Source: Rugalucina vietnamica
Lineage: Eukaryota > Mollusca > Bivalvia > Lucinida > Lucinidae
NCBI GenBank assembly: GCA_964017185.1
Contig: OZ024884.1
Span: forward strand, 441,501-505,500
Reading direction: 5' to 3'
Length of the DNA stretch: 64,000 nt
Shown: positions 4,152-54,512 of the stretch, piece by piece
Layout of the letters: the number at the start of each line of letters is the position of its first letter
Position numbering within the stretch: the first letter of the stretch is position 1
Position numbers and translations under genes: made by a program
The notes under the pieces: model-generated
What the model was told of the DNA's origin: nothing
Database searches by the model: none
Seen by the model: only the letters and a program-made list of their open reading frames with translations

Positions 4152-4316
4152 CTAGTATTTTGGCGACTCAAGATAGAGACTTGTCATACTGCTTGAATAC
4201 TGAATCCTGATGGTCATTTCAAACATGAGGAGCTTCACTGTGATCTCGGCGGTAGACGTGACTGTGTCTGTACGCATAATTATAATTCTGTCCCCGAGAT
4301 GTCCCTCTTTGATGAC
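4152..4316 (-). CDS. Gene X exon 3 (terminal)
   Basis: Acceptor ACCTTTCAG|GTCATC. In phase 0 the frame is open for 54 codons to TAG. Visible motifs are GHLGDR, STAEITV and TIRIQY, matching the Gly-Asp-Arg and strand layout of gene Y exon 3. In phase 1 a different frame runs 31 codons to TGA at 4219 (basic, His/Tyr-rich); phase 0 is preferred because of the likeness to gene Y. Confidence 0.55.
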   Translation of the reverse strand, partial: VIKEGHLGDRIIIMRTDTVTSTAEITVKLLMFEMTIRIQYSSSMTSLYLESPKY

Positions 4317-7300
4317 CTGAAAGGTTTATCAATGTTATATTTATGACGGAAGAATCTTCATGAACATTCGGTAAACTGATAAAAATATCATCTGCATTAA
4401 GTAAACTTTTCAAGGTAAAGTATATATGTAATGATCAGGAAATGGCGCACTCAGAAAGAAATTTCCACTCCAAAATCCCGAGGTGGGGAAAAAACTAAAT
4501 TAACAATCAGGTACTTAATTATACTAAGAATGTATATCGTAAGCCGAGTGAGCAGCTATGTTCTCAATAGGTGGCCACTCAGTTTGAAAAAAAAATGAAA
4601 ACGCACATTAAGTGCACAAAAATTCAACACCAAGACATCAAACAATAAGAACCACCAGAGAAGTATCGACTTGCAACGATCAGTAATATAAAATTATTGG
4701 CGGACTTTTAAAAACAACTAGTTTTACAAGGCCATAACTTCACCCTCAGCTTCTACAGTAGTTCTATTATACACAACTATAAACAATAAATAAGAAAACT
4801 CATGTACACACATGTAGGTAGCAACATGTAACATGTATAATGGAAAGCAGGATGAGCAGGTGCTAAAGGCTATGTGGTCACAGTGCCAGCTTGGACAATA
4901 CAAGTAAAATGCAGAGGGCTAAGTGAACAGCCAAACGATATTCGGGAGGCCACAAAGTCATACAACATGAAGCTCAAAATTTGAACAATTGGGATAAATT
5001 TGATCCACAACAGCAGAGGGTAATTATGTATTTTTCACATCAACAAGTTATTATCACGGAGATAAGCATAGACGACATTTGAAATCTTATATATTTTTTA
5101 CCAATTGTATACACTTAAAATGGGCACAAGTAGGCAATGATCAGGAAAAGGCGCAATCAGAAAGAAAGTTCCACTAAAAATACAATTTTACTTCAAATGG
5201 TGTTTTGATATGTTCAAATTAGCATGGAGATGTTTCCATGATGTTTCTCTAAAGCAACGTTTGACTTTTTTAAATATCAAAACGTGATTATCTAGTTTAA
5301 GAGCGCCCGAATTCGAAGCGATAGGTCCTGGGTTCCCCACCGGTGTCGCAATGTTGTGTTTTGAGCAAGACAATGTGACTCCCCACAGTACTACTTTATA
5401 CCAATGAAGCAGTGATTTCTTTATGATATTATGAGAAATTGTTGTTACAAACAAATGATTATCAAAACAATGTATTTATTCATCACGGGGTGGTATTCAA
5501 ACAAGAAGCCCAGGGGCAACGATCGCTCACCTGAGAGTCAACAAGTACAGTCACTGGACAAAGTAAACGTTTTTTTTTTAAGATTTTTTTTAAGTTTTTC
5601 CCATGACGCCCCCGGGGCGGGGCCCGTATGGACCCCAGTGGCACGGTTGGCGGGATTTATAAAGAGGACCCCTATACAGATTTATAAAGAGGACCACTAT
5701 ACATTGCTACTGACAAAATATGAAAGCTCTGGGCCTTGTGGTTTCGGAGAAGAAGATTTTTTTATGTTTTTCCCATTGTAAGTCTATGAGAGCTAATGAC
5801 CCCCGGGGCGGGGCCCGTATGGACCCCAGGGGTACGGTTGGCAGGATTTATATAGAGGACCACTAAACATTACTACATACAAAATATGAAAGCTTTGGGC
5901 CTTGTGGTTTTAGAGAAGAATTTTTTTTTATGTTTTTCCCATGACACCCCGGGGCGGGGCCCGTATGGACCCCAGGGGCAGGGTAGGCAGGATTTATAAA
6001 GAGGATTATTATACATTGCTACAAACAAAATATGAAAGCTCTGGGCCTTGTAGTTTCGGAGAAGAAGATTTTTTAAAGTTTTTCCCATGACGCCCCCGGG
6101 GCGGGGCCTGTATGAATCTCAGGGGCACGGTTGGCAGGATTTATAAAGAGAACCCCTATACATTGCTACAAACAAAATATGAAAGCTATGGGCCTTGTGG
6201 TTTCAGAGAGAAGATTTTTTTAATGTTTTACTCATGACACCCCGGGGCGGGGCCCATAGGGACCCCAGGGGCACGGTTGGCAGGGATTATAAAGAGGACC
6301 ACTATACATTGCTACACACAAAATATGAAAGCTCTAGGTCTTGTGGTGTCGGAGAAGAAGATGTTTTATGTTTTTCCCATTGTAAGTCTATGGGAGCTAA
6401 TGACCCCCGGGGCGGGACCACTTTTGACCCCAGGGACATGATTGGCAGGATTTATATAGATGACCACTAAACATTGCTACATACAAAATATGAAAGCTTT
6501 GGGCCTTGTGGTTTTGGAGAAGAAGATTTTTTATGTTTTTCCCATGACACCCCCGGGGCGGGGCCTGTATGGACCCCAAGGGGCACGATAGGCAGGGTTT
6601 ATAAAGAGGACCATTAAACATTGCTACACACAAAATATGAAAGCTCTGGGCCTTGTGCTTTCTGAGAAGAAGATTTTTTTATATTTTTCCCATTGTAAGT
6701 CTATGGGAGCTATCCGTTGCCATGGAAACCAGAGTTCTGATCCGACCTGGCCCAAAACCTTATACAACCTTTCCCCCTCCTCAATGATGCTTTAGATAAA
6801 ATTTGGTCATGATTGGCCTTTTTGTCTTTGAGATATTCAAGTTTGAAAATGTGGACGCACGGACGGACGCACGCACGGACGGACGGACGGACGCCGGCTC
6901 GACTACTGTACTATAAGCTCACCTTGTGAGCCTTCGGCTCAGGTGAGCTAAAATCCATAGTTTTCACTTTTTTCCCATTTAAAAGCCTATGTTTCCAAAA
7001 TTGACCTCGCTGTAAAAAAGGTCAAGGTCATCTTAGGGTCATCATTTTATCAAACTATGATGGGCTGGAGTCCCAAATGCTACATGCACATACCAAGTTC
7101 CGTGAAAATCAGCCCGCAGTTTCTGGAGAAGAAGGTTTTTTAGTGGTTTTTACCATATATGGGCGTGGCGGCCATATTGGTCATGTGACCTGGATTTCGC
7201 GATCAAACTTTCATAAACCCTATCCAAGGATGATCCATAAAATTTCAGTTTGATTGACCATGCTGTTTCAGAGAAGATCTTTGAAAAGTGTGTATGGACG

Positions 7301-10300
7301 ACAGACCGGTCAAGGTCAAGAGATGACCTTGACCTATATCAATCATACTTTCATTAGTTGTTTTGCATCTACCACTTTTCAGGTCTCAGGCTGCAACTGT
7401 TTTCAAAAAATCCATAACTTTCACTTTTTCCCATGTAAAAGCCTATGTTTCCAAAATTGGCCTTGCCGTAAAACAGGCCAAGGTCATCCTATGGTTATCA
7501 TCGTATTAAACTATGATGGGCTGTAGTCCCAAATGCTACATACCAAGTGTCGTGAAAATCCGCCTGACGGTTCAGGAGAAGATGATTTTTGAGTGGTTTT
7601 ACCATATATGGGCGTGGCGCCCATCTTGATCATGTGACCTTAATTTCGCGATCATATTTTCGTTACCCCTACCCATGGATGCTGCACATAAAATTTCACT
7701 TTGATTGACCAAGCGGTTTCAGAGAAGAAGATCTTTGAAAAGTGTGTATGGACGACAGACCAGTTAAGGTTAAGAAATGACCTTGACCTATATTAATCAC
7801 ATACTTTCATTAGTTGTTTTGCATCTACCACTTTTCAGGTCTCAGGCTGCAATAGTTTTCAAAAAATCCATAACTTTCACTTTTTCCCATGTTAAAGCCT
7901 ATGTTTCCAAAATTGACATTGCCGTAAAATAGGTCAAGGTCATCCTACGGTCATCATTTAATCAAACTATGATGGGCTGTAGTCCCAAATGCTACATATC
8001 AAGTTTCGTGAAAATCCACCTGCCGGTTCAGGAGAAGAAGATTTTTGAGTGTTTTTACCATATATGGGCGTGGTGAACTTTGAAAAGTGTGTATGGACGA
8101 CAGACAGGCCAAGGTCAAGAGATGACCTTGACCTATATTAATCACATACCTTCATCTACTCCATAAGTTGTTTGTATCTGCCACTTTTCAGGTCTCAGGC
8201 TGCAATAGTTTTCAAAAAATCCATAGTTTTCACTTTTTCACATGTAAAAGCCTATGTTTCCAAAATTGACATTGCCGTAAAATAGGTCAAGGTCATCCCA
8301 GGGTCATCATTTTCGCAAACTATGATGGGCTGGAGTCCCCGATGTTACATACTAATTTTCGTGGAAATCGGCTCGCCAGTTCTGGAGAAGAAGATTTTTG
8401 AGTGGTTTTTACCATATATGGGCGTGGCGGCCATCTTGGTCATGTGATCAAGATCCCGCGAACAAACTTTCGTTCCCCCTACCCATGGATGATCTACACA
8501 AAATTTGGCCTTCATCGGCCAAGCGGTTTCAGAGAAGAAGATCTTTGAAATTGTAGACGACGGATGGACGGACGACGGACGGACGATCGGACGCCGGACT
8601 GATTGGTATACTATAAGCTCACCTTGTCAGCCTTCGGCTCAGGTGAGCTAAAAAAGTTTGATAGCGTTTGCTCTCTGAGTCGTTTCCTTGAGCACGTGAA
8701 TCACTGGATGGGAAATGACTAGGTATGAAAGTTTCGAGACAGTCCAGAACAAGAATAATACATTGTGGTCGCCATTGTTATACGATTCGATAAATACTAT
8801 GAACAAGCATGTTTACACTTAAACGGATTTAAGACTAGCAATGCCGAAACTATACATACGCCTTGTGCCAACTGCATCGTTTGCACATTCTTTGCGAATA
8901 TCATACCAAATTCGGCACTGGCAGAAAATGAGTCTCCTTTTTTCCAGTACAGTTTGCAATTGTAGGTTCCCTTGACCAGAATAGCTCCCTGTAACAACAG
9001 CTCAGTAGCTAGTGTACCTTTCATGATATCCATAGCACCTAAAAATACAAAGAAGAAGCGTAAATCTATGCAGTACACTTTTTGTCCCATTCTCATGTTA
9101 ATACAGCGTCGAAACCTAATAATTGATCATTCCAAGGCCGCCGCACTTTAGTTCTGCCCTCGATTGTTATACTGCGTTTACACTATGTTCCCGGCGGTCA
9201 CGGCGGCCACGTTTCAGACAACCGTGAGCAAAACGGGATAACCGTGAGGCAACGCAGGGGAACGGGATAGGCAAACGTAGCACGCCGGGATAACCGTGGA
9301 CACCGTGACAAATTTTTTGACAGTTTAAAAATCTGCCACGGCAGTCACGGCGGAAATGAGAAACGTAATGGGCCGTGATAAAACGGGCTGAACGTAACAC
9401 GCCGTGACAGAACTTAACAGTACGTAGCGAAACTTGGAGGCGGTCCGTAGTGCAACGGGAGGCTAGTGAATAGCCCGGCAAGCTACGGATCTTCCACGTT
9501 CTGTTGCGTTTGGGCACGGTCGTCTCACGTCTCGTCCCGTTTCCTACGGAATACTCAACACGTTTTGTTGCGTTATGTTACGGTGCGTTACGGTCTTTGA
9601 CGGTGTTCACCCCGTTCTACTACGTATGTCACGTTGTGTTACGGTTATCACGGCGCGTGAAGTTTATAGATATAAAATGGCATATCATGGGGACAAGTTC
9701 CTTCATATTGGAGCAGTCACTATAGTGAACAATACAGACCATACGCTGCACTATGCAATTGAAGAAGAACTACAATTCCGAGCTTTCTTAATCACCCCTG
9801 CAGTCAGTTGTTGAGGAACGCGGTTGTTATTATTTCAAAGGACTTATTCGTTAACAAAAGGGAAAAAATGTGCTTTATATTGTATGGTGTCTACGTTTCG
9901 TCCGTAGCTGACCTTGACAGACCGAAAAAAACGTGTTACGCCTTGGTCAAAACGCAACTGACCGCAACAGAACGTAACAGGCCGTAATAGAACGTGCTAA
10001 TAATCGTGATAGATCGTGGTAAACCGTAACGTACCTAAGCGCCTCCGTGACACACCGGCTTATCACTAACACGGCGTGTTACGGATATCGTAATACAACG
10101 TAAGAAAACGTAACAAAACGTGATAGATCTTGAAAATCAGAGAAATAGATTTACAAATCTCCACGGCACGCTACGTTTCTAGCAAACGGGGCTGCCGGGG
10201 CCGCCGGGAACATAGTGTAAACGCAGTATTATCGATGCAATACGCATTTGGTAGAGTCTTCATTTGCTACAGTACTACGGACTCTGTATTTAGATGTCTT

Positions 10301-12498
10301 TGATTAGTCACTATTGACAATTACATGGTATTGTTTACATACAAACCGATAAATGATCGGTGACACACACTGCAATTGAGACAGAAGTTGAGGTTAAATG
10401 TTCGAGTTTTCTCCTATAGCGTGTTCTCTACTGAAAAATAGATGGGTGCAGTCCATGCAGAAAATGAACATTTAGTGAAAGAAATTAACATAAGAAATCC
10501 CGGTCATTTTGTTTTCGCAAACACTTCAATGTTATTGTGTTGGAGCACTATATGTTCCTGAGGCGGACGTGTTTGCGAAAACGAAATAACTATGTTTTTT
10601 TTTCATTCAATAAATGTTCAATTTCTGCATGGACTGCGCCTATCTATCAGTCAATAGACTAATTGGTATAGGATAAAACTCGAATTTTCCATCTCAACTT
10701 CGAGCAGAATTGCATTGTGCGTCACCCATTCCATACCACGTGTTTATCAGTTGTGTTAGTGTTGATTCGAATCCCGCTTGCGACGAGTTGCTCCCTTACT
10801 TCGTTCTATATCATGTATTAATGGTAATGAGGAAGCATGTCATTATCAACAGACGCAAAATGAAAAAGATGTTTCTGGCTGTGTACTATGCTTCATGCCA
10901 GGCAAATTATATATATAAAACATTACAAATGTATCTGTACATGTTAATGAATGGTGAGCTAAAACTAAAGAAAACGGTCCAAATTTTATTTTACAATTAC
11001 ATTTTATAGTGTAAAATTATTGTTAAACCAATGCGAATGCTATATGTCATGTATGTGTAGTATGTACAGAGAAAATGTGCACTTACTTAATTGCAAAATA
11101 TAATTCAGAGGTTTTCTGAAAGACAGTGGTCTGCACGTCGTGTCTGTAAAAGAAAAAAAAAACATAAATATTATTGAAAAAGAGCGGTTTTATGTTTCAT
11201 AAATTGTAAAGGAATCAAGTGCGCTCATGTAACTCAAATATAACCAGGACAATTCTGTTGTGACTATTTATACAGTAAGTGCAAGTAACTTGGAAATCGT
11301 GTGGAGTGAATGTGCATCAAGCGTCTTAGATTTAACTTAAGAGGCGGAGTAAAACTAATAACTATGATTCGTTTCGGACCAAATTTTTGCAGCCCGCTTA
11401 GTACATGTACATGCACGTACCATCTGATCGTTTCGAAAGTTCAACATTTCCTCCTTCAAATGTTGTGTCATGTCCACTTTGATTCTGGTCATATTTGCCA
11501 TCATTTTCTTCAAAACGCAGATCTATGTATAAACATAAATACAAGGTAAAATACAAGATGCAAAGAAACATTCCTATCACTCGCATTTTGGCAAAATCAA
11601 TTAATATCATAAAGGAAACAAATGCATTTATTATACCTCATTAGTATTCATTGGCTGAGTGTGGATTTTGATTGGTCAAGAGCAGGTCACACAAAGGGTG
11701 TTATTCTGTCATGCCGCATGCTCATATTATCCTCTGACGTCATACCTGCCTAAAACGTTCAGCTGCACTTGTATTCACATGCGTTTGTTTACAGTGCACG
11801 TGGAGGGCGCTATTCTGTCATGTCGCATGATTATAGTACCCTCTGACGTCATATTCGCCTAAATGTGCAGTTGCACTTGTAGTCACATGTGTTTGTCCTA
11901 ATTTGTTTCAAAAAGGGTTCGGTATAATAAAAAAAATGTTGCCCTTGAGTGAGGGTGACATAACGATTTGTTCATCCTCGACAGGTTATATTGTTCTCGG
12001 GCTTCGCCCTTGGGCAATATCACCTGCCTCTGGTGAACAAAACGTCAGGTCACCCTCACTTAAGGGCAACAATTGTATAATGTATTACATGAATCAATCG
12101 ATCAATTTGTCAAATTATAGCGGCATTGTTACGCATCAATCAGGAACCGTGTAATTTTAAACAAGATTGCGTTTTCGATTGCCACCGTTCTCGATTGTCA
12201 TAAACGTGCTGGCAATCGATAACGTTTAGTTTTCGCTCAATGATCGTCGTTTTGGCAATTCATAACGCATTTTTGGCCATCGAGAACTGCTTTTTTATAT
12301 CATGTGGGTTGTTCGCGATGTTTCCTCAAACAGTAGATTTTGCCTGTGCGTACGCCAGAAACACGCAGTTTTATACGAAAATTCCATTAATTCATTCATA
12401 CCTTTGCTAGCTTGTACTTCTTTCAACGAATCTTGTAGTGCAATAGTCGTGCCAACGCAACTCACCAGGACCACCATAAAGAATCCAGACTGCATCAT
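4152..12498 (-). CDS. Gene X: small secreted protein, paralogue of gene Y
   Basis: Spliced model: coding exons 12498-12402, 9038-8860 and 4316-4152, about 146 residues. Exon 1 gives a signal peptide (MMQSGFFMVVLVSCVGTTIA, then LQDS). Exon 2 holds KGTLATELLLQGA and an Ala-Glu-Phe motif. Exon 3 has GHLGDRIIIM, STAEITV and TIRIQY, an alternating pattern that suggests beta strands. Phases agree at both joins (1, then 0). Gene Y has the same exon count, phases and motif order, so the two are probably paralogues. The domain resembles short C-terminal modules of bacterial polymorphic-toxin-type proteins; this is unverified. The product should be exported. Alternatives: the first exon at 11610-11421 and the 57-bp cassette at 11143-11087 are also phase-compatible, and a second donor in exon 2 gives a less protein-like tail. 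The last intron (4317-8859) carries two pearl-like arrays. Function unknown. Confidence 0.58.
4420..4985 (+). mobile_element. Family 3 interspersed repeat, long copy
   Basis: Contains GATCAGGAAATGGCGCA, the CCGAGGTGGG segment, CGTAAGCCGAGTGAGCAGC and the distal CACAGTGCCAGCTTGG part that reappears inverted near 18470. Confidence 0.65.
5119..5175 (+). mobile_element. Family 3 repeat, end fragment
   Basis: CACAAGTAGGCAATGATCAG and following bases only. Confidence 0.6.
5502..6951 (+). mobile_element. Pearl-like element, seven units of about 150 bp
   Basis: Starts GCCCAGGGGCAACGATCGCTC. Core units carry CCCCGGGGCGGGGCC and GAGAAGAAGATTTTTT, spaced 146-191 bp. An ACGG-rich microsatellite and the terminal hairpin GAGCCTTCGGCTC with AGGTGAGCTAAAA follow. 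It sits in the last intron of gene X. The structure matches bivalve pearl elements, thought to be non-autonomous Helitron relatives. Confidence 0.8.
6953..8651 (+). mobile_element. Pearl-like element, four units of about 457 bp
   Basis: Units marked by ATATGGGCGTGGC at 7150, 7608, 8065 and 8418; the third lacks about 100 bp. It ends with GGAC-rich repeats and the same AGCCTTCGGCTCAGGTGAGC terminus. Its 5' end abuts the previous element directly. Confidence 0.8.
8860..9038 (-). CDS. Gene X exon 2
   Basis: Acceptor TATTTTTAG|GTGC. The exon starts with two bases (split Gly codon), has 59 codons and ends in phase 0 at CAAGGC|GTATGT. It encodes KGTLATELLLQGA, a Lys/Tyr-rich stretch, SASAEFGMI and KNVQTM. 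These align in order with KGIKATMSLLRGA, AEADFYSV and PSNVLD of gene Y exon 2. An upstream donor at 8906 (TTTG|GTATGA) is also possible and would put exon 3 in another frame. Confidence 0.58.
9170..10228. mobile_element. Harbinger-like TIR element with CGTAAC-rich interior
   Basis: Terminal inverted repeats start TACTGCGTTTACACTATG and match over about 27 bp. They are flanked by a TTA duplication (167-169 of the 9 kb block and 10229-10231). The interior is dominated by CGTAACA, CGTGACGG and variants. No transposase frame. Confidence 0.75.
10363..10719. mobile_element. Foldback element with arms of about 150 bp
   Basis: Left arm (ACTGCAATTGAGACAG, GGTGCAGTCCATGCAGAAA, TTTCGCAAACAC) reappears inverted on the right with moderate divergence. 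Confidence 0.7.
11087..11143 (-). CDS. Gene X candidate 57-bp cassette exon
   Basis: A very strong acceptor (T-rich tract, then TTTTACAG) and a consensus donor (TTAA|GTAAGT) bound 57 bp. The segment is phase 1 on both sides, so inclusion adds 19 residues (DTTCRPLSFRK...) without shifting the frame. Gene Y has no counterpart, so this may be optional. Confidence 0.35.
11421..11610 (-). CDS. Gene X candidate alternative first exon 1b
   Basis: ATG at 11610, with an in-frame ATG at 11586, opens 63 codons plus one base and ends at a strong donor, GATG|GTACGT, in phase 1 like exon 1a. It encodes a hydrophobic signal or anchor segment (VIGMFLCILYFTLYLCLYI) and then an acidic, polar stretch. No acceptor is evident just upstream, so it reads as an alternative start rather than an internal exon. 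It could be chance. Confidence 0.35.
11690..11895 (+). repeat. Duplicated block of about 115 bp
   Basis: TATTCTGTCATG...CTCTGACGTCATA occurs twice, each followed by CAGTTGCACTTG-type sequence and CACATG(C/T)GTTTGT. Confidence 0.6.
11939..12069. mobile_element. Hairpin MITE
   Basis: TTGCCCTTGAGTGAGGGTGA pairs with TCACCCTCACTTAAGGGCAA; the loop is GGGCTTCGCCC. Nearly the whole element is palindromic. Confidence 0.75.
12402..12498 (-). CDS. Gene X exon 1a (signal peptide)
   Basis: ATG at 12498 opens 32 codons plus one base. A hydrophobic stretch (FFMVVLVSCVG) ends at a likely signal-peptidase site after TTIA. The donor AAAG|GTATGA follows exactly. The frame is open upstream as far as 12534 without another ATG. 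Confidence 0.6.
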
Positions 12499-12581
12499 GT
12501 ACCGACACTCACTAAGTTCTGCTACAAGTAACAAAGAATAAATGATTTAATGATATGATACAACTGAGTGTGTGATTAAAA

Positions 12582-12845
12582 AAAGGTACAAGTACGCAAT
12601 GATCAGGAAATGGCGCAATCATAAAGAAATTCCCACTCCATAAACCGAGGGGGGGGGGGGGGGGAACTAAAATGACACTTAGGTTCTTATACCAAGAAAA
12701 CATATCGTAAGCCGAGTGAGCAGCTATTCCACAATAGGCGGCCACTCAGTTACCAGAACTGAACTAAAAATATACGTACATAAAACTCAAATAGTACAAA
12801 AAATCGACTCCAAACACAAAACAATTAGAACCACAACAGAAAAAT
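12582..12845 (+). mobile_element. Family 3 repeat
   Basis: GTACAAGTACGCAATGATCAG through CAATTAGAACCACAACAG, with a G run replacing part of the GGTGGG segment. Confidence 0.7.
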
Positions 12846-13038
12846 TCAACTTTTACAGAATGTATATTTTATTTATTTAGATATGTTTATTCATGCAGCA
12901 ATGGAGCATTGAAATGAAAATGCTATTTAAAGTTAATATTATCTAAATAAATAATACATCGGTTATTGATGACAAAAAAAGTAGCACTTACATTGTGCAC
13001 TCCGTCAAAAGCATCTGTTACTACAAAGTGTTTCAAAT

Positions 13039-13214
13039 CATTACGAAAACATACCAATGCAATATACAGTGATTTCTGAAGTTGTAAAAAATGAAAATTT
13101 TCAGAAAATTTTCGATATTTTTCTTATTTTTGCTCAAAACATAGATTGTGGGTACACGCTAGAAGCGCCTCGGCGAGGCGGTTCTAACGAGTACCCACAA
13201 TCTATGTTTTGGAG
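13039..13214 (+). mobile_element. Family 1 foldback MITE, right end missing
   Basis: End A CATTACGAAAACATACC and the central CGCCTCGGCGAGGCG palindrome are present; the sequence leaves the consensus after the palindrome. Confidence 0.8.
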
Positions 13215-13569
13215 TAGACTGGCCCCCGTCCTATGTTCACTATCATCCTATCATACCATGTTCTATAACCTCCATAAATATTTTCTTGTATGAGTTACCC
13301 CTCTTCTTAGGCTCAGAACATAGGACTGGTGAAAAGCGGAATGGATGTCTACGGAATCTCGCAGACACCTCATTAAGTTCACCTGTTTAACCTCTTCACC
13401 CATTTATAAATGGTTGTGGTTAGTGTATACAGATGTTATCAATGAAACTGCTAATGGCCCTTATCAAATCAGGGATCACAGAGAATAATATTCTTTTCAG
13501 ATTGAAATTTGAAAATATGGTATAAAAATGTACAGGCACAGTCTTATCAATACTTGTGTTGGTGTGACC

Positions 13570-14930
13570 CTTTCAGACATTTGCACAGTCTGGTCAATAA
13601 CATGAACCGGTGGATTGCTGTCTGACATTTAAGCAGGCTGGTCAATAACTTGCAGTGACAGTTTCTTGTCATGTAGGCAACATTTGCACAGTCTGGTCAA
13701 TAACATGTACTTGTGGATTGCTTTCCAAACATTTGTGCAGTCTGGTCAATAACATACTGTGGTGGATTGCATCCCAAAACATGCACAGTCTGATCAATAA
13801 CTTGCTGTGTTGAATTGCTTTCCGACATTTGCACAGTCTGGTCAATAACTTGCTGTGGTGGATTGCTTTCCGAAATTGCACAGCCTGGTCAACCTTGTAC
13901 TGGTGGATTGCTTTTCAATATTTGTGCAGTCTGGTCAATAACTTGTACTGATGGATTGCTTTCAGACATTTGCGCAGTCTGGTGAATAACTTGTACTGGT
14001 GAATTGCTTTCCAAACATTTGTGCAGTCTGGTCAATAACATACTGTGGTGGACTGCTTCCCAAAACATGCACAGTCTGATCAATAACTTGCTGTGTTGAA
14101 TTGCTTTCCGACATTTGCACAGTCTGGTCAATAACTTGCTGTGGTGGATTGCTTTCCGACATTGCACAGCCTGGTCAACCTTGTACTGGTGGATTGCTTT
14201 CCAATATTTGTGCAGTCTGGTCAATAACTTGTACTGGTGGATTGCTTTCAGACATCTGCGCAGTCTGGTGAATAACTTGTACTGGTGAATTGCTTTCCAA
14301 ACATTTGTGCAGTCTGGTCAATAACGTACTGGTGAATTGCTTTCTAACATTTGCACAGTCTGGTCAATAACTTGCATTGGTGGATTGCTTTCTGTCATTT
14401 GCACAGTCTGGTCAATAACTTGCTGCGGTGGATTGCTTTCTGGCATTTGCACACTCTGGTCAATAACTTGTGATGGATTGCTTTCCAACATTTGTGCAAT
14501 CAGGTTAATAATTTGTACTGGTGGATTGCTTCCCGACATATGCACAGTCTGGTCAATAATTTGTACTGGTGGACTCCTTTCCGACATATGCACAGTCTGG
14601 TGAATAACTTGTATGTATGGATTGTTTTCCGACATTTGCGCAGTCTGGTCAATAACTTGTACTGGTAACTTGCTTTGCAAACATTTGTGCAGTCTGGTTA
14701 ATAACTTGTAGTGGTGAATTGCTTTCTAACATTTGCACAGTCTGGTCCATAACTTGTACTACTGGATTGATTTTCGACATTTGCGCAGTCTGGTCAACAA
14801 CTTGTAATGGTGGATTACTTTCCAACATTTGCGCAGTCTGGTCAATAACTTGCACTGGTGTATGGCTTTCAAACATTTGCACAGTAACATGTAGTGTTAT
14901 ATTACGAGACATTTGAACAGTCTGGTCATA
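13570..14930 (-). repeat. 48-bp minisatellite (16-residue unit), about 28 copies
   Basis: Tandem unit around CAGTCTGGTCAATAACTTG, mostly 48 bp, some 45, 46 or 49. On the minus strand it encodes repeats of ESNPPVQVIDQTAQMS. A block of about 288 bp (six units) is itself repeated nearly exactly at 13726-14014 and 14015-14303. One-base differences in some units shift the frame. Confidence 0.85.
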
Positions 14931-15083
14931 GCTTGTATTTTGAATGCTTGCTGATATTTTATAATCAGTCTCATTTCCTTTTCCTTTTTGAATCTCTTTA
15001 ATCAATTTTAGAGCTGTAAAGCTATTTTTTTTGTAGATCAAATCCATAGACTTTGTGGTGATAAGGATCTGTTTATTTTCCAA
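14649..15083 (-). pseudogene. Open frame leading into a 16-residue repeat
   Basis: A 144-codon frame with a 60-residue non-repetitive start (MENKQILITTKSMDLIYKKN) runs into copies of a 16-residue unit (QVIDQTAQMLESNPP) before a one-base insertion ends it. Another 120-codon stretch of the same repeat is open at 14680-14318. Function not recognised; the array is broken by several frameshifts. Confidence 0.3.
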
Positions 15084-15257
15084 GAATTTATGATGCCAAT
15101 TAGACCCCTTTTCAATGTTTCAGCAGTTCATCTAGTGTTGTAAGGTCAGATGTACCTAAGAAAGCAGAAACGGTTTTCACCAGTCGTCAAACTCAGCCAT
15201 CAGAAGATTGTGTGCATGTTTTTCTGATAAAAACAAAAGTTTGACGACGGGAGCCAG

Positions 15258-21436: not shown

Positions 21437-21844
21437 CTAGAGTATTACTGACAACTGTTCGTCCACTTCCTTATCATTTTTTGGTGCATTTTCTAGTTCA
21501 TTTTCATATAACTTGTCCGCCGATCTGAACGAGTCTTTCGACGTTGATACTTTCTTTTTCTTCTTTTTTCCTTCTCTTCCCTGTGCCACTCCCCTTGTTA
21601 AAAGTGAGCCCCCGTCATACAGTAGCAAAGCCGGCCAGACAATGAAGTCTGTGTACTTTCCTGTTTCCGTATAGGGTCTGAAAAGCTTGTCATCGAATTT
21701 CTTTCTTTTCTGACCCGAGAAGCATAAAAACATCGGCGGATCTTGTATACACATAAGCCAACAAAGCTCTGTTGCCTTGGTCACGAAGGTTTTATTATGC
21801 ACGTCTTGCATGGATTGTGGAGTTGACAATGATGATTCCACTTT
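21437..21844 (-). CDS. MIEAP-like exon H (C-terminal domain)
   Basis: Acceptor CATTTCCAG|AAAGTG, then 135 codons to TAG. It carries ATELCWLMCIQDPPMF, RPYTETGKYTDFIVWPALLL and SLLTRGVAQ, the conserved core that links the gene to MIEAP-type C-terminal domains. The tail is Lys-rich and then acidic, and looks disordered. Confidence 0.65.
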   Translation of the reverse strand, partial: KVESSLSTPQSMQDVHNKTFVTKATELCWLMCIQDPPMFLCFSGQKRKKFDDKLFRPYTETGKYTDFIVWPALLLYDGGSLLTRGVAQGREGKKKKKKVSTSKDSFRSADKLYENELENAPKNDKEVDEQLSVIL

Positions 21845-23254
21845 CTGGAAATGTAATTATACATCTAGTGCCCGATGTAGCATATCTGCTACATGGCTCT
21901 GTTTTCAAATTGGTACAATGACCAGTGTATTGATTTTCTTTTGAAGTTATCACAACTACGTGAGTCTACTACGATCTTACCATGAAGCAAGTGTGCGGCA
22001 TTGCGGGGAAAAATGACTGTATCATTTACTGAGATATTGTATAGCAAATGGGTTTTATAAGCAGCCAACGTTAAACAAAGATCAAAAACGCAAATGTAGC
22101 ATATATGATACATCGGGCAAAAAGTTGTTCAAAAACCCAAACTCATGATTCTGACAATATCTTTTGGATACCCTGATGAATATAAGCAAACATGTTCTTC
22201 GGTTTGTTCATATTATATAGATCAGCAGGCTAATTATCGCCCCGCTCTACTTCAGTACCTCGTTCCACATCTATGTGTGGAGAGGTATCACGGAACACTG
22301 ACGGGAACATCCTGTCTCTACATGTAGCTATAATATGAGCCGCCTCGTCGGAAAACCAACAATGTGGTTTCCGACCAGGTCTGACACAAACCGGCCTGTA
22401 CAAGCACAGAAGATGGCTAGAGGCTTGAAATTTCGGAATTAAGAAGAAGAGAAAGTGTACTATCCGTGTAGCGAAAGCAAAGGCGCTGATCAGCTTCGCG
22501 GTTACCACGAAGCTGATATGCGTCTTTGTTTTTGCATATGCAGATTGTTGGTTTTCTCAAGAGGCAGCTCATATAGAAAGAGACTAAACCATTATCGTAA
22601 CACATGAGTTATGGGCCTTTCAATTTCGCCTTGCGAAAACTTAATGCCTAATGTAGCATATATGGTACATGCTATTTTCAGAGACCATTGGAACCCTGTT
22701 TTTATTTGAAATGTAGTCAATGGTGAGAATATGAATGTTTCTGACAGTACATCCTATGTTTGGGCACTAGATGGTTACGTTACATATCAATATCATGTTT
22801 ATATTAGTTAAAAAAATATATGAGCTTATAACTTATATTTTAGATTATCAAATTACACATATTTAACGGAGATCATCTATATTCAGCTTACGATATGTTC
22901 TCTTTGTAATAATAACAGATTGCAAATTTTGTTTCATTCCATCTGAATTTCAAGCCTTGGTTCCGACTGTACCTGTTGCTGATTTGTGCTGACTAAGCTG
23001 CTCATTATGTGTTTTTGTTTCTTATATGAAACAAAGTATACTTAACATGCATTGAGTTATTCATTTACATTGAGTTAAATTACCATATGCAGTTCCGGTA
23101 AGAAGGCCTTATAATTGCGTTTTCTTTCTTCCTTGAGTTCCTTAATTGCTCTTCTCACTGGTTCAGATGTCTAGAGATAGAGAAAATAAAGTATTATGCA
23201 TGATATGAGAACTATGCATTTGCCATTGGCAGATGTGTTACGAGCAGCGCGTTG

Positions 23255-44190: not shown

Positions 44191-44197
44191 TTATGTT

Positions 44198-44911: not shown

Positions 44912-44949
44912 TTTCTGAATTCGCTTCAGAATATTTCAACTAAAGTCGA

Positions 44950-45214
44950 CATCAGGAAAATATGTCCGTGCAATGTATACCCCCCTTAAACCCCACTTTT
45001 ATGTAGAAAAACTGGGGTATGCAGGGTTTACCTATTTTTCTTATTTTTGCTCCAAAACATAGATTGTGGGTACTCGTTAGAACCGCCTCGGCGAGGCGGT
45101 TCTAACGTGTGACTACAATCTATGTTTTGAGCAAAAATAAGAAAAATATCAAAAAAATTCTACGGAAAATTTTCATTTTTTACAAATATTTTGTACGGGC
45201 ATGTTTTCGTAATG
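44950..45214 (-). mobile_element. Family 1 foldback MITE, just past gene Y stop
   Basis: CATCAGGAAAATATGTCCG to TTTTCGTAATG; ends 15 bp from the gene Y stop codon. Confidence 0.9.
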
Positions 45215-45228
45215 GAGTTGAATGGCTG

Positions 45229-45366
45229 CTACATATAGTAAATATTGTCCACAATCTGTTCGACACTTTTGCTAGGCATTCTCTTCGGGGTGTATATCGC
45301 TACTTCAGGCTGCGGTCCTAGGATCACTGTAATACGCCGGTCTCCAACCATCCCCGACTTAGATAA
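45229..45366 (-). CDS. Gene Y exon 3 (terminal)
   Basis: Acceptor ATTTTACAG|TTATCT, then 45 codons to TAG. Motifs are SGMVGDRRITVIL, EVAIYTPKR and EQIVDNIYYM. The Gly-Asp-Arg followed by a strand matches gene X exon 3. Confidence 0.6.
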   Translation of the reverse strand, partial: LSKSGMVGDRRITVILGPQPEVAIYTPKRMPSKSVEQIVDNIYYM

Positions 45367-48300
45367 CTGTAAAATAAAACGAAAATATTTTTTTAAATTG
45401 TTTCTGAATTTAATTTAGTATTTTGGTAATCTAATAATTTAGCTAGGAGATGCAGTTCAAAAGAATTGTCTTGATTGCGTCTAAGGGAGCGACCATTTGG
45501 TTTTTGATGGGGGGTGGGGGCTGTTTTCGGTCCTAGATTTTTTTATTCAAAAAATCTTCCAGCAGCCCCCCCACCCCCCTGCCCAATAAAAATCAAATGG
45601 TTGCTCCCTAAAAACAGGTCACATGAAATTAAATAGTAATGTTATTTTTCCTTAATACTCAAAAATTGTCCAAAGGTACATTTTCTCACGTTTTGGCTCA
45701 TTTGTCTATTATCAATCGTTCTTGGTTGAAAACCCTGAGTATGTCCACAAAGCACAACTTTGAAATTTCAGGTTTTCTGCTATGTGACGTTTCGTGGTGT
45801 CTCCTCATCAGTACGAAAACTTGCCCATGTGTTATACAGATTTTTCCATAGTTGTAAAACTTGAAAATTTTCATTTCAAAAATGTTGAATTTTTTCTTAT
45901 TTTTGCTCAAAACATAGATTGTGGGTACACGTTAGAACCGCCTCGGCAAGACGGTTCTAACGAGTACCCACAATCTATGTTTTGGAACAAAAATAAGAAA
46001 AATAGGTATACCCATTCATACCCCAGTTCTGCTATATAAAAGTGGGGTTCAAGGGGGTATACATTACATGGACATGTTTTCGTGATGTCAGGAAAACATG
46101 AAAAGTTTATCCCACTGAACCCCACGTTAACATAGTAAAACTGTTGTATACAGAGGTGTGCATTTTTTCTTATTTTCGATCCAAAACATAGATTGTGGGT
46201 ACTCGGTGAGAGGGTCCTAACGTCACGGTGTTCCCACACTCTATGTTTTGCGTAACAATAAGAAAAATATCAAAAATGTTTTAATAAAAATTTTCATTCT
46301 TTTACAACTGTAAAAATTGCATGGGCATGATATCGTAATGCGTAATGCTTCCGGTACAGTCTTCTTCATGTGGTCCCGCATTACGAAAACTTGCCCATGC
46401 AATATACAGAGATTTTTAAAGTTGTAAAAAAATGAAAATTTTCAGTAGAAAAAAAATGATATTTTTCTTATTTTTGCTCAAAAACATAGATTGTGGGTAC
46501 TCGTTAGAACCGCCTCGCCGAAAAACATAGATTGTGGGTACTCGTTAGAACCGCCTCGCCGAGGCGGTTCTAACGAGTACCCACAATCTATGTTTTTGAG
46601 CAAAAATAAGAAAAATAGGTATATCCCTGCATACGCCACCTTTGCTGTTTAAGAGTGGGGTATAAGGGGGTATTCAATTCACAGACATGTTTTCCTGATC
46701 CTACTTCGATGATAGTTCATATGTAATGTTAAATATGGCCCATTTTTTTCTCAGCGCAGTGAAAACAGGATGATCCAGAATGTCTGATACCATTTCAAAT
46801 TTTAATAATTCTGTTTCAGCAGCACATACATTATTAAAAATCTACACTGATTCAAGTTTTGTTTGGTATGCAATGTTAGATATATCAACCACTTATATTT
46901 TAAATAGAATTGGTCAAACATTTTCACAACATTTATATAAAATCGCTGCCTGACGTCCATTTTGGATTACAACGGCGTCAAGCTTATTTTGATAGTTTGC
47001 ATTTTATAAATACATGTACGGTTATAAATAAGTCACATACTGCCATAAAAACAAAACATTGGAGTGCCTTATACCAAGTATAGTATCATGAATGAAATAT
47101 AATTTTCATCAGGAAAACATGTCCGTGCAATCAATACCCCCTTAAACCCCACTTTTATATAGTAAAACTGGGGTATGCAGGGGTATACCTATTTTTCTTA
47201 TTTTTGCTTCAAAACATAGACTGTGGGTACTCGTTAGAACCGCCTCGGCGAGGCGGTTCTAACGTGTACCCACAATCTCTGTTTTGAGCAAAAATAAGAA
47301 AAATATCATTTTTTTTCAGCTGAAAATTTTCAATTTTTAAAGCTAAAAAATCTCTGTTTATTGCATGGGCAAGTTTTTGTAATGTTGAATTGAGGTATTC
47401 AACATTACAAAAACTTGCCCATGCAATAAACAGAGATTTGAGCCGCCCCATGGGAAAACCAACAATCCGCATATGCGAAAACAAAGACGCAGATCAGCTT
47501 CGCAGTCACTGCGAAGCTGATCAGCGCCTTTGTTTTCGCTACTCGGATAGTACAATTCCTCCTCTACTTAACTCCAAAATTTCAAGCTTCTAGCTTGCTT
47601 CTATAGCTGTACAGGCCGGTTTGTGTCAGACTTGTTCGGAAACCACATTGTTGGTTTTCCCACGAGGCGGCTCAAATATAATACCTCAGACGGCCTTACC
47701 CCATAATCAAGGACATTACTCGGTCTCACGCTGTAAAAATCAGCTTCAGCCTGGTTCCGGCCGCCTGCCTTCACATACTGCGTGAATGCCTTGGACCGAA
47801 ACATTTTTTTAGCCCCTCGCAGAAGTGACATTGTTGCCTTTATTCCTTTCCAAATAGAAGACCCTGAAATAGACATGTTTGTTACAATAATTCTGTTTGT
47901 AGTATGACTTTCCGTTGTCATTACGAAAACTTGCCCATGCAATATACAGAGATTTTTTAGCTTTAAAAATTGAAAATTTTCAGCTGAAAAAGTTTGATAG
48001 TTTTCTTATTTTTGCTCAAAACATAGATTGTGGGTACTCGTTAGAACCGCCTCGCCGAGGCGGTTCTAACGAGTACCCACAATCTATGTTTTGGAGCAAA
48101 AATAAGAAAAATAGGTATACCCCTGCATACCCCATTTTCACTATATAAAAGTGGGGTTCAAGGGGGTATACATTGCACGGACATGTTTTCATGATGTTTT
48201 TCCTTTAAGTTTGAAGTTTTTGTGAAACATTAAATCCAATACATATGGCTATCAAAGAAGGTGGGCCTACATAGAAATACTCAGGAATTCGAAGGAGGCG

Positions 48301-51300: not shown

Positions 51301-54300
51301 CAAATGCATTGGCGACCTAAGTTGACCTTGCCGTAAAATAGGTCAAGGTCATCCTAGGGTCATGATTTATATAAACTATGATGGGCCCACGTCCCCAATG
51401 CTACATACCATGTTTCGTGGAAATCGGCCCACTGGTTCTGAAGAAGAAGATTTTTAAAGGTTTATGCTATTTATAGCCATGGCGGCCATCTTGGTCATGT
51501 GACCTGGACCATTTATATAAACTTTCGTTCCCCCTTCCTAAGGATGCTCCACATGAAGTTTGGCTTTGATTGGCCAAGCGGTTTCAGAGAAGAAGATCTT
51601 TGAAATTGTGAACGACGACGGACGAAGACGACGGACGACGGACGCCGGTGCATGGGTATACTATAAGCTCACCTGTGAGCCTTCGGCTCAGGTGAGCTAA
51701 AAATACCAGTACGCTAGACCATCAGGAAAATATGTCCGTGTAATGTATACCCACTTGAACCCCACTTTTATATAGTAAAACTGGGGTATGCAGGGGTATG
51801 CCTATTTTTCTTATTTTTGCTCCAAAACATAGTTTGTGGGTACTCGTTAGAACCGCCTCGGTGAGGCGGTTCTATTGTGTACCCACAATCTATGTTTTGA
51901 GCAAAAATAAGAAAAATATCAAAATTTTTCTCATGAAATTTTCAATTTTTACAGGTGAAAAAATCTCTGTCTATTGCATGGGCATGTTTTCATAATGCTA
52001 GAATACTAAATAAGATTTTTTTTCTGCTCTCAGCCTCGGCACAATCATGATTTCAGGACACCGCCCTTTAGAAGAATTGCTTTCTTTCGCGCGTGCACTA
52101 ACCCGGATGCTCCAGTCGTCTAATTACGTCCTGTCTGTCCTCATGGAGGCTCTGCCTGCCGATAGAGGGCGTGATAAATCGCGTTACGCGTGTACTTACA
52201 AAGTCGGCATTATTTCACAGTCCTCATGTTGCGAGATGCTTCAAGCCGAACAAATTATTTATTCACGACTAAACTCGATGATGCTGCCAAATAAAATCGA
52301 TGATTTTAGCCATCACATTGTTAAAACTTTATTATTACATGCATTTTACTTCAATTACACAAAATCATGGAACTTACAAACGCGTTCTTGAAGGCTTGGA
52401 TGTTGGCGTTATGTGGTCAACGTGGTGGATGAAACCGGAGAACCCGAGCGGGGAAAACCAACGACCTTGGACGGACGACCACTACCCTGTCATATGCCTT
52501 GAACCGGATCACAAAGGTGACAAGCGAGTGAGTTATCCACTACGCTTTCCATGCCCCTTTCTTTACTGTGACTAATCGTTCCAATGCGGTTTTGTATTTA
52601 CAAGTATTTACGTGTACCCTTTTTAAATTATGGCTATTTACGTTATGTGCGTTTCAGCTTTGTTTTAGTTGACCACGGGCTAAATGGCAACCTTCCTTAG
52701 GAAGTCCAGGCGGCCCCCGTGGCCGAGCGGTTAAGAGCACTCGATCATCTCACCGCTCTGACTGGCGTAGGTTCGAGCCCCGCTCTGGCCACATGTGAGA
52801 CAAGCCAAATTCTGCTTGCGGGTGTGCAAGGTGGTTTTCTCGGGGTTCTTCCGTTTTCGCCCCACCTACTGAGCTGAAATAACCTTAAAAGGGATGTAAA
52901 ACTGAATCCAAAAAAAAAAAAAAGAAAAATAAGGAACATGTCATCTTTCTCGTATACATTAGGAAAACATGTCCGTGCAATGAATACCCCCTTAATCCCC
53001 TCTCAGTACAGTCACGGTAAAACTGGTGGTTGCAGGGTTTACCTATTTTTTCTTAATTTTGGTCCCAAACATAGATTGTGGGTACTCGTAAGAACCGCCT
53101 CGGCGAGGCGACTCCAACGTGTACCTACGATCTATGTTTTGAGCACAAATTTGAAAAAACTTTTTTTTTTCTGATGAAATTTTCAATTTTTACAGCTGAA
53201 ACAAATCTATGTATGTTGCATGGGCAAGTTTTCGTAATGGTAATGCGAACTGCTTTGTATTATGCGATGTACAGTTCCACACTGTGTCTCATCAAGAAAA
53301 CATGTCTGTGCAATGAGTATCCCTTAACCCCCATTTTTGCATAGTAAAACGGGGGTATGCAAGGAATACCTATTCTCCTTATTTTAGGGCCAAAACACAG
53401 ATTGTGGGTACTCACTAGAAACCACAATCTATGTTTTGAGCAAAAATGTTCAAATATCTTTTTTTTTTCAATGAAATTTTCAATTGATACACCTGAAAAA
53501 AATAAAACTCTGTATATTGCATGGGCGAGTTTTCTTAATGTTGATTTGGCACTTGTAAAGTAAATCATTAGAAAAACATGCCCATGCAATATACAGAGAT
53601 TTTTTAAGTTGTAAAAAATGAAAATTTTCAGTAGATATTTTTTTTATATTTTTCTTATTTTTGCTCAAAACATAGATTGTGGGTACACGTTAGAACCGCC
53701 TCGCCGAGGCGGTTCTAACGAGTACCCACAATGTATGTTTTGGATAAAAAATAAGAAAAATAGATATACCCCTGCATACCCCAATTTTACTATATAAAAG
53801 TGGGGTATGAGGGGGTATTCATTACAGGGACATGTTTTCCTGATGATTGCGTAAGGAGCAAGAGTCATAGAAGCCACTCTCACTCTTTACGTGCTTTCAG
53901 AACTAAGCCACCCAACACACCACGGTCACGTGATAAAACAAAACTGCTAAAGGTATCCCTCTAAAATAAATTTTGAGTTCTGAATTCAACAAAAACGCGG
54001 CTGTGTAGAAATCAGATACATGTGAAGGCTCCCATTCACACTGTACGTACGATGGGGATGATGATACACGGTACACCACGACCAGGCGCCGAGGTTATAA
54101 ACCTTTTTCATGCACAACTCAGCGGAGACTAAAATTTATCCTGCTGATAAATGTGAAATGCCAACAATTGTTGGCATTTTAAGATTTATCAGCAGGATAC
54201 ATTACAGGCTTTGGCATTATAAACCTTCAATTTCAACATATTTGGACTATTTTGGTATTTATGAGAAGTTTAAATGTTATGCTCAGCTGAGTTGAGCATG

Positions 54301-54512
54301 AAAAATTTTTTATAACCCCAAGGCCTGCTTAAGACATCTCTCTAGAAGAAATTCTGAATTCAACAAAAACGTGACTTACGTGCGGCTGTGTAGAAATCAG
54401 ATACATGTGAAGGCTCCCTTTCACACTGTACGTAGGATAGGGATAATGCTACCCAGCACACAGCCACCAATAGGTACCAGGACCCACAATTCTTAAGCAT
54501 CTTCAGTCGCAT
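45229..54512 (-). CDS. Gene Y: small secreted protein, paralogue of gene X
   Basis: Three exons, 54512-54380, 47863-47700 and 45366-45229, join in phases 1 and 0 to give about 144 residues and a natural stop. Exon 1 is a signal peptide (WYLLVAVCWVALSLSYVQC). Exon 2 begins SSIWKGIKATMSLLRGAKK and carries GGRNQAEADFYSV and PSNVLDYG. Exon 3 has MVGDRRITVIL and ends NIYYM. Exon phases and motif order match gene X. The Asp-Phe, Pro-x-Asn-Val, Gly-Asp-Arg layout recalls the C-terminal module of bacterial RHS/polymorphic-toxin-like proteins; this is recollection only and no catalytic residue is claimed. Expected location is extracellular or secretory. Intron 1 holds family 1 copies, a SINE and a pearl-like array. 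Family 1 DNA starts 15 bp after the stop, so the 3' UTR is probably transposon-derived. Confidence 0.62.
45485..45608. mobile_element. Hairpin MITE with TAA target duplication
   Basis: GGGAGCGACCATTTGG pairs with CAAATGGTTGCTCCC; TAA lies on both sides, typical of Harbinger-type insertion. Lies in intron 2 of gene Y. Confidence 0.75.
45806..46087 (+). mobile_element. Family 1 foldback MITE
   Basis: Complete, in intron 2 of gene Y. Confidence 0.9.
46085..46340 (-). mobile_element. Family 1 MITE, inverted and abutting
   Basis: Shares its end B with the preceding copy, so the two stand tail to tail. Confidence 0.85.
46379..46700 (+). mobile_element. Family 1 MITE with duplicated palindrome arm
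   Basis: The left arm (CATAGATTGTGGGTACTCG to CGCCTCGCCG) is present twice. Confidence 0.9.
47107..47384 (-). mobile_element. Family 1 foldback MITE
   Basis: Complete. Faces a 36-bp end A fragment at 47403-47438. Confidence 0.9.
47403..47438 (+). mobile_element. Family 1 end A fragment
   Basis: CATTACAAAAACTTGCCC through CAGAGATT, cut by the family 2 copy. Confidence 0.75.
47439..47674 (+). mobile_element. Family 2 foldback MITE
   Basis: TGAGCCGCCCCATGGG to CACGAGGCGGCTCA; 26 bp from the donor of gene Y exon 2. Confidence 0.9.
47700..47863 (-). CDS. Gene Y exon 2
   Basis: Acceptor CTATTTCAG|GGTCTT and donor ATGGG|GTAAGG bound two bases plus 54 codons. It contains KGIKATMSLLRGAKK, GGRNQAEADFYSV and RPSNVLDYG. 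A family 1 element ends 56 bp upstream of the acceptor and a family 2 element lies just beyond the donor. Confidence 0.62.
47919..48196 (+). mobile_element. Family 1 foldback MITE, full length
   Basis: Perfect palindrome centre CGCCTCGCCGAGGCG; 56 bp upstream of gene Y exon 2. Confidence 0.93.
48468..48573 (+). mobile_element. Family 2 fragment
   Basis: Inner palindrome (GATCAGCTTCGCAGTTACTG) and a worn right end. Confidence 0.7.
48656..49076 (-). mobile_element. Family 2 MITE split by another MITE
   Basis: TGAGCCTGTGCGTGAG ... GCGGCGGCTCA; the inner palindrome is interrupted at 48830-49010. Confidence 0.85.
48830..49010. mobile_element. MITE nested in family 2, 16-bp perfect TIRs
   Basis: CATGCGCGGATCCAGA / TCTGGATCCGCGCATG with GCGAA duplicated on both sides. 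Interior is G- and C-run rich. Confidence 0.88.
49077..49620. other. Stretch without a recognised feature
   Basis: Intron 1 of gene Y; a poly(A) run at 49112-49132, otherwise nothing supported. Confidence 0.45.
49628..50063 (-). mobile_element. tRNA-derived SINE split by a foldback MITE
   Basis: Head GTGGCCGAGTTGATAT (A box) at 50063 and B box GGTTCTAGCCC; the insertion occupies 49793-50041. Confidence 0.65.
49793..50041. mobile_element. Foldback MITE with 47-bp TIRs
   Basis: CCTGGTCCCGAGGTTATAAA / TTTATAACCTCGGGACCAGG ends and an inner AAATGCCAACAATTGTTGGC palindrome. A 70-codon frame across it is a by-product. Second copy at 54092-54325. Confidence 0.85.
50168..51703 (+). mobile_element. 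Pearl-like element, three units of about 440 bp
   Basis: GAGGACCAATGGTCCTG start; units marked by GACCTTGCCGTAAAA and TTATAGCCATGGC(A/G)GCC; GACGACGGAC tract and terminal hairpin end. In intron 1 of gene Y. Confidence 0.82.
51720..51997 (-). mobile_element. Family 1 foldback MITE
   Basis: Complete; one arm slightly diverged. Confidence 0.9.
52020..52600. other. GC-richer stretch, no gene assigned
   Basis: Plus-strand frames of 114 and 91 codons overlap here, but no splice sites or recognised motifs support them. AAACCGGAGAACCCGAGCGG looks like a TE fragment. Confidence 0.35.
52712..52930 (+). mobile_element. tRNA-derived SINE, full length
   Basis: Head GGCCCCCGTGGCCGAGCGG with A box TGGCCGAGCGG and B box GGTTCGAGCCC (Ser/Leu-tRNA-like), a conserved body (TTTTCTCGGGGTTCTTCCG), AAGGGATGTAAAACTGAA and poly(A). 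Not a functional tRNA gene. Confidence 0.85.
52958..53239 (-). mobile_element. Family 1 foldback MITE
   Basis: Complete but worn. Confidence 0.88.
53290..53540 (-). mobile_element. Family 1 MITE, palindrome centre deleted
   Basis: Ends intact; GTACTCACTAGAAACCAC replaces the centre. Confidence 0.85.
53566..53845 (+). mobile_element. Family 1 foldback MITE
   Basis: Complete; head to head with the preceding copy. Confidence 0.92.
53980..54070 (-). pseudogene. Broken copy of gene Y exon 1
   Basis: Nearly repeats 54353-54465, including the region coding for EPSHVSDFYTAA, but lacks the 11 bases that carry the donor and lacks the start of the signal peptide. A foldback MITE lies between the two copies. 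Confidence 0.5.
54092..54325. mobile_element. Foldback MITE, second copy of the 49793 family
   Basis: GCCGAGGTTATAAACC to TTTATAACCCCAAGGC, same inner AATGCCAACAATTGTTGGC. Separates the two copies of gene Y exon 1. Confidence 0.8.
54380..54512 (-). CDS. Gene Y exon 1 (signal peptide)
   Basis: ATG at 54512 opens 44 codons plus one base to a strong donor (CGCAC|GTAAGT). A hydrophobic core from Trp to Cys is followed by EREPSHVSDFYTAA. An in-frame ATG at 54575 would add 21 residues; the shorter start gives the more typical signal peptide. Confidence 0.62.

Follow-up and report, generated by a model that had tools for sequence, protein, structure and literature searches.

A multi-copy gene family of the clam Rugalucina vietnamica with a probable origin in a bacterial toxin module

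Background

Teneurins, large membrane receptors with few genes per genome in which an ABD is followed by Tox-GHH/TCAP, have put a toxin tip to use as a ligand. Other animal proteins that descend from polymorphic toxin domains include the CIDE-type HNH nuclease and the CD38-type cyclases, and the sole mollusc entry in the passages drawn on from that survey is Tox-ART-RSE (PMC3482391). The subject here is a pair of genes, X and Y, of the lucinid clam Rugalucina vietnamica. Both lie on a 64,000-nucleotide stretch of DNA (the window; positions 441,501 to 505,500 of contig OZ024884.1, written C16:441501-505500) in a genome of 1.09 Gb and 47 contigs, and both encode a short domain that an earlier note on this DNA had likened to the C-terminal module of bacterial RHS and polymorphic toxins.

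The clam domain and the bacterial toxin module are almost certainly homologous, and a bacterial source of the clam domain is likely. The case resembles that of the CIDE-type nuclease and the CD38-type cyclases in that a bacterial toxin domain would have been recruited by animals, but the domains differ; in size, membrane anchoring and gene number the teneurins are unlike the family described here. No earlier report of the module in animals is among the papers listed by a literature search at the level of titles and the beginnings of abstracts, which took in few subscription papers.

Relationship to a bacterial toxin module

The pattern GG...A..DF..[hydrophobic].P.NV, common to three of seven clam copies (Y and two further members of its cluster, P3 and P4), was used as a DNA pattern; those who designed it were also already acquainted with the bacterial motif. 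It matches the window once, inside Y, with no match in 100 shuffles, and elsewhere it matches 35 stretches in a genome collection and three in viral contigs (38 in total). Sixteen of these 38 were judged to be one family by reading their tails, that is, they were chosen for mutual likeness with the tails seen beforehand, and 22 were dropped. Most of the dropped matches look like peptidyl-tRNA hydrolase.

The 16 modules are C-terminal, toxin-like domains of about 100 residues from Bacillota, Bacteroidota, Pseudomonadota, Spirochaetota, Chloroflexota, Dependentiae, Kaiserbacteria and one viral contig. After NV, their alignment holds an invariant G.L..G.....R..S; 15 of the 16 also have RY close to the stop. 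Seven carrier open reading frames (ORFs), scanned to the locus ends, contain RHS repeats (two), PT-VENN (one), DUF6443 (one) or nothing recognised (three); PT-VENN marks CDI-type toxins. An ORF of 126-180 residues starts -35 to +30 bases from the module stop at every locus except L031, where only a 65-residue ORF follows, at +44. The module at the protein end together with the following ORF gives the toxin-immunity layout of polymorphic toxins. By similarity, the 15 immunity-like ORFs form groups of 10 and four, with L046 alone, and the three such proteins scanned match nothing in Pfam. Across the L035-L068 loci, at least two such similarity groups accompany the same toxin module. The modules have no credible match in Pfam, NCBIfam or the PDB; PHROG 18811, annotated 'toxin', matches six of the 16. 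A plasmid collection contains seven records with a relative of the module from locus L064, three of them named (hemagglutinin repeat-containing protein, DUF6531 domain-containing protein and RHS repeat-associated core domain-containing protein).

In the RHS/CDI C-terminal modules of L035, L039, L053, L055, L061, L064 and L066 the order and spacing of the clam domain recur, as GG...A..DF..x.P.NV....G.x.....strand...strand...IxY. In hhalign, a seven-row clam profile and a 16-row profile of the bacterial modules align over 92 columns with a probability of 98.9 and an E of 2e-17. A repeat on other alignments scored 92.8, against at most 15.5 for 100 column-shuffled bacterial profiles. The stretch after NV, which had no part in the pattern, matches by itself with a probability of 90.5, an E of 1.4e-6 and none of 200 shuffles as high. 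When the 38 pattern matches are scored with the clam profile, the 16 modules reach 22.5-49.3 bits and none of the remaining 22 exceeds 14.6; the profile's downstream half alone gives 15 of the 16 modules -0.9 to 8.7 and the others at most -1.0, nine of these being without a score.

The reverse search points the same way. With 300 kb of flanking DNA the window was extended to a 364-kb region containing 6900 ORFs, among which the bacterial profile places family exon-2 ORFs at ranks 1-7 (E 6.7e-9 to 0.019), including that of a copy, P8, in DNA previously unsearched. Of six matches found with L064 alone in the whole genome, three coincide with places found by clam queries. A convergent likeness, built from a short glycine-rich motif and common strands, could draw on the motif's presence in the 22 pattern matches that are other proteins. 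It is barely credible given that the downstream half matches alone, that the bacterial profile found P8 in new DNA, and that half of the L064 matches fall on clam places. The likeness to RHS and polymorphic toxins proposed in the earlier note has thus turned out to be homology.

The earlier note also proposed that an animal lineage had taken up the domain. Here the homology holds, and the direction is read from the bacterial side, uptake from bacteria being favoured because the module is spread broadly among them. In a tree, the eight clam rows stand on one side of one branch (99/98), which fits a single origin and does not give the direction of transfer. Contamination is disfavoured by the length of the contig carrying the genes (38.9 Mb) and by their MIEAP-like neighbour.

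Gene structure and copies in the genome

Coordinates of the exons of X and Y, of the other members of the cluster and of the intervening gene are collected in Table 1. X and Y do flank a MIEAP-like gene on the same strand, as had been noted. PF16026 (MIEAP) matches neither X nor Y, and the idea that they are broken-off MIEAP C termini was dropped. The equal exon number and the intron phases (1 then 0) claimed for the two genes were confirmed on spliced coordinates, with 4152 and 54512 as the ends, and the introns are GT-AG. The spliced products, of 169 residues for X and 144 for Y, are each built from three short exons without a long RHS or FilH-type carrier. Aligning them, as the earlier note had suggested, gives a local score of 68, whereas 2000 shuffles of Y average 27.2 (standard deviation 4.6) and none scores as high; X and Y are paralogs. 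The motifs named in the earlier note are present, except that X has Asp in place of the second Gly of GG and Ala in place of Pro.

Table 1. Exons of the clam family and a neighbouring gene (positions in the window unless marked C16, which are contig positions)
Feature	Position	Strand	Remarks
Gene Y exon 1	54380..54512	-	Hydrophobic signal-peptide-like N terminus; GT donor, phase 1 end; score matched by 3/150 random 8-kb stretches
Gene Y exon 2	47700..47863	-	N-terminal half of domain (GG...A..DF...P.NV); ORF ranks 3rd of 6900 with bacterial profile
Gene Y exon 3	45229..45366	-	C-terminal half of domain (G.VGD..I strand ... IYYM stop)
Gene X exon 1, version of the earlier note, uncertain	11421..11586	-	Score matched by 9/150 random stretches
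Gene X alternative exon 1, equally uncertain	12402..12498	-	97 nt, signal-peptide-like; score matched by 7/150 random stretches
Gene X exon 2	8860..9038	-	N-terminal half of domain
Gene X exon 3	4152..4316	-	C-terminal half of domain (G.LGDR.I ... IQY)
Partial duplicate of Y exon 1	53996..54085	-	77% identity over 30 residues; matching site without GT donor (by eye)
MIEAP-like gene exon, bystander between X and Y	21437..21856	-	PF16026, E 7.8e-9
P3 exon 2	C16 near 417.6-417.8 kb	-	tblastn / exon-2 profile
P4 exon 2	C16 385.1-385.3 kb	-	tblastn / exon-2 profile
P5 exon 2	C16 373.8-374.0 kb	-	tblastn / exon-2 profile
P6 exon 2	C16 367.4-367.6 kb	-	tblastn / exon-2 profile
P7 exon 2	C16 299,333-299,476	+	tblastn / exon-2 profile
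P8 exon 2	C16 273,145-273,288	+	Bacterial-only profile, in stretch previously unsearched; exon 3 located afterwards

Searches of the extended region by tblastn with X and Y, and with the exon-2 profile, found P3-P7; together with P8, from the bacterial-profile search, they bring the cluster to eight genes (X, Y and P3-P8) within about 223 kb of one contig. Exon 2 is entered in phase 1 and left in phase 0 in all eight, the phases being read partly by eye. In P3-P8 an exon 3 with G.[VL]G[ND]...strand...IxY lies downstream on the same strand as exon 2, in scans that required phase 0 and the glycine motif. The intron interrupts the domain in all eight copies read, in agreement with the earlier suggestion that introns were gained. 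This division, the stand-alone genes and the at best signal-like first exon set the clam copies apart from the bacterial RHS/CDI module.

Further members can be found across the genome. Exon searches returned 94 matches with Y (E <=1), 59 with P6 (E <=0.1) and six with bacterial L064 (E <=1), which merge to 137 distinct places. The places are distributed over 14 contigs, and 128 lie beyond the 364-kb region; they are exon-level places, not gene counts, from a search that scores best candidates only, and the weak ones may be chance. Eleven groups comprise at least three places with neighbours less than 100 kb apart, one group being Y's own exons. In several matches, namely C1:54286971-54287264, C14:3899605-3899895 and five of the six in C16:19.54-19.61 Mb, the frame stays open through both domain halves, so that some family copies seem to lack the intron. 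Open frames in the protein set also resemble family copies: P0001, P0003, P0004 and P0008, on 2.36-Mb contigs, and P0005 and P0007, on 6.3- and 3.7-Mb contigs, the last two being like P6 with many differences by eye.

Evidence of constraint comes from P7 and P8, outside the window, since X and Y are too diverged for the test. Over 96 codons this pair of sister copies shows 28, 22 and 60 differences at first, second and third positions (synonymous and non-synonymous proportions pS 0.79 and pN 0.26), and shifted frames give the opposite pattern. Exon 2 (10/11/31) and exon 3 (18/11/29), each of 48 codons, contribute alike, and purifying selection on the protein is seen in each exon of P7 and P8. 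Many or all copies might nevertheless be decaying relics, and X, the most divergent, may not work: it has the longest end branch (2.44), the lowest bacterial-profile score and a doubtful first exon, and some places in the genome carry internal stops. General decay is improbable. The protein of P7 and P8 has been kept while silent sites became saturated, exons 2 and 3 are open in all eight copies, and relatives of P6 recur on other contigs (P0005 and P0007).

Conserved and replaced residues

In a joint alignment of 16 bacterial and eight clam domains, the latter all from the one cluster, conserved columns (numbered on the alignment) can be grouped generally into two categories. The first, a framework kept in the clam, includes G41, the first G of GG (8/8), the second G (5/8), A (6/8), D49 (7/8), F50 (8/8), P (6/8), N57 (5/8), V (6/8), G71 of the second motif (8/8) and the final Y118 (8/8). 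The second, polar columns prominent in bacteria and mostly replaced in the clam, includes R82 (16/16 bacterial, 2/8 clam), S85 (16/16, 2/8), T96 (15/16, 1/8), E98 (13/16, 0/8) and R117 (15/16, 0/8), the counts at S85 and T96 depending on the alignment because their loop is gappy. The turn glycine G76 is found in none of the eight clam copies. We read this as loss of the active site with retention of the fold, and because most of the conserved polar residues are replaced the clam copies are probably no longer enzymes. Profiles of the two larger immunity-like groups (10 and four proteins) found nothing credible among the region's 6900 ORFs over 364 kb, the best E values being 0.48 and 0.022. In both the polar residues and the absence of an immunity-like ORF from that region, the clam copies are unlike the bacterial module.

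The teneurin nuclease, for its part, is called inactive in the portion of one study used here (PMC5851990). A second account, also drawn on in part, describes a teneurin GHH toxin domain that lacks the motif and still cleaves DNA and kills cells (PMC6297184), and a lost motif therefore need not mean lost activity. The clam proteins could accordingly still be active secreted enzymes, probably nucleases, directed against microbes or used in digestion, with the active site relocated. The bacterial modules themselves are toxin-like in context (C-terminal, followed by an immunity-like ORF at 15 of the 16 loci, RHS or PT-VENN in three of seven carriers and the PHROG 'toxin' match in six of 16), and the residue counts are confined to copies of the cluster. 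Such continued activity is unlikely, with five polar columns that are present in 13-16 of 16 bacterial modules kept in only 0-2 of eight clam copies, and with no immunity-like ORF better than E 0.022 in 364 kb. On balance, we favour non-enzymatic clam proteins.

The putative signal peptide

First exons were sought with a home-made score for a hydrophobic start and a phase-1 donor, compared with 150 random 8-kb stretches. Those of the additional copies are reached by 6 (P7), 15 (P6), 23 (P3), 55 (P5) and 71 (P4) of the 150. Candidates were sought over 25 kb, and the one chosen was the most signal-peptide-like near exon 2, not always the top score; better-scoring candidates lie 14.6 kb away for X and 19 kb away for P4. 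The unequal search lengths and the choice of candidate mean that the control flatters the first exons.

A signal peptide had been proposed for both window genes. That of Y stands out (3 of 150), and that of X is doubtful (9 of 150, with the rival exon at 7), its 97-nt alternative being closer to the 91-133 nt range of the other copies' candidates. Plausible signal exons recur across the copies, with Y's alone standing by itself. On sequence, secretion is plausible for Y only; we rate a secreted family as more likely than not.

Fold and relation to teneurins

A structure model was made from bacterial L064 (m23aedfeb1413). The model has a helix at 9-14, a strand at 26-31, a helix at 35-44 and then five strands, and the teneurin C-terminal region (ABD) matches it best in structure. 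No recognised BECR-fold chain is among the best 50 fold-search matches listed. The module is perhaps Ntox36 (Zhang et al. 2012), one of the BECR-fold RNase toxins, in which a helical segment leads into a meander of four strands; a published table gives the Ntox36 residues as N, [RY] and [DE].

The structural match raises the alternative that the clam family descends from the animal's own teneurin ABD and not from a separate bacterial transfer. This is highly improbable. At E up to 10 neither the clam nor the bacterial profile lists a teneurin chain in the PDB. If the modelled likeness reflects kinship, it could instead explain the origin of the ABD. A solved bacterial teneurin-like protein is described as having no homology to the teneurin C-terminal domain (PMC13018210), so that the present module is a candidate source of the ABD.

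Other matches and features of the window

Additional searches gave no better assignment. With Y as a single sequence the best Pfam match is DUF6819 at E 0.27, and nothing was found in NCBIfam, PADLOC, the PDB, plasmids, phages or the protein set. Against the PDB, the clam profile A2 matches a PPR protein (E 3e-4) and a TPR protein (0.09), both confined to a YxKxGxxxxAxxxF stretch that recurs from one repeat to the next, none of these being significant by itself, and taken as chance; the bacterial profile A3 matches eIF2-gamma (E 0.006), likewise taken as chance. Members of A2 reach T6SS_FHA_C in Pfam at 0.13, and profile A1 found no relative in viral contigs. Tox-SHH (PF15652), a guess made before the exons were read, gave nothing.

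Elsewhere in the window, long open frames of a degenerate repeat (VIDQTxQMxESNPPxQ-like) lie at 13889-15119 on the minus strand, the two ORFs scanned being without a Pfam match at E <=0.1. Between 44300 and 54000, and also in the introns of Y, an element recurs in many copies; it carries an inverted repeat around AACCGCCTCGGCGAGGCGGTT, its ends lie near CATGTCCGTGCAATG / CATGGGCAAGTTTTCGTAATG, and by eye it looks like a non-autonomous transposon. A tRNA-like stretch (GGCCGAGCGGTTAAGAGC) at 52710-52800 on the plus strand is perhaps the head of a short interspersed nuclear element. Exons of another host gene, possibly of the JmjC type, lie at 56539-63300 on the minus strand, and one 285-residue open frame there has no Pfam match.

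Proposed origin and significance

The evidence may be drawn together as a horizontally acquired, expanded and probably secreted pseudo-toxin used for binding, a reading to which we give even chances as a whole. An ancestor would have taken a toxin tip of about 100 residues from a bacterium, and the module would have separated from its carrier and become stand-alone. An intron may then have arisen at a turn that links two strands of the model and a signal-peptide exon been added, and the copies would have multiplied over many chromosomes, often as arrays. The glycine, aromatic and hydrophobic framework would have been kept, the module being retained for its surface and not its chemistry. The products would be small proteins, secreted and used for binding, that serve defence or recognition and are analogous to the toxin-tip ligand of the teneurins; such a role, put forward by analogy, is a tentative assignment.

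A number of results sit poorly with this account. On the side of homology, the stretch before GG alone is not significant (reached by 4 of 200 shuffles), and L059 (-1.2), scored with the downstream half alone, is no better than the best non-modules. Exon 2 of X is absent among the matches listed from the bacterial-profile search of 6900 ORFs, and spliced X scores 14.2 bits with that profile, the lowest of seven. None of the six L064 matches is individually significant (E 0.03-0.8). The eight proteins found by clam profiles in a set of 5.8 billion all resemble this family's exons, with none bacterial, and Y matches no plasmid or phage record. On the side of secretion, between 15 and 71 of the 150 random stretches score as high as the first-exon candidates of P3-P6, and X has two rival candidates that score alike. 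As to the active site, polar loss is incomplete (D49 in seven and N57 in five of eight copies), the S85 and T96 counts vary with the alignment, and all residue counts come from eight copies of one region.

Uptake of polymorphic-toxin domains by animals has already been described, in the parts of the survey used here (PMC3482391), and the 137 exon-level matches would make this a large new case, with a module that itself has no Pfam or NCBIfam match. At its most speculative, and not a likely outcome, the module would have become in this lineage a large and diversified repertoire of inactive toxin mimics, secreted to recognise microbes or to signal self and non-self, with the teneurin ABD an older use of the same module. 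The family would make testable what a secreted, diversified toxin tip does in an animal.

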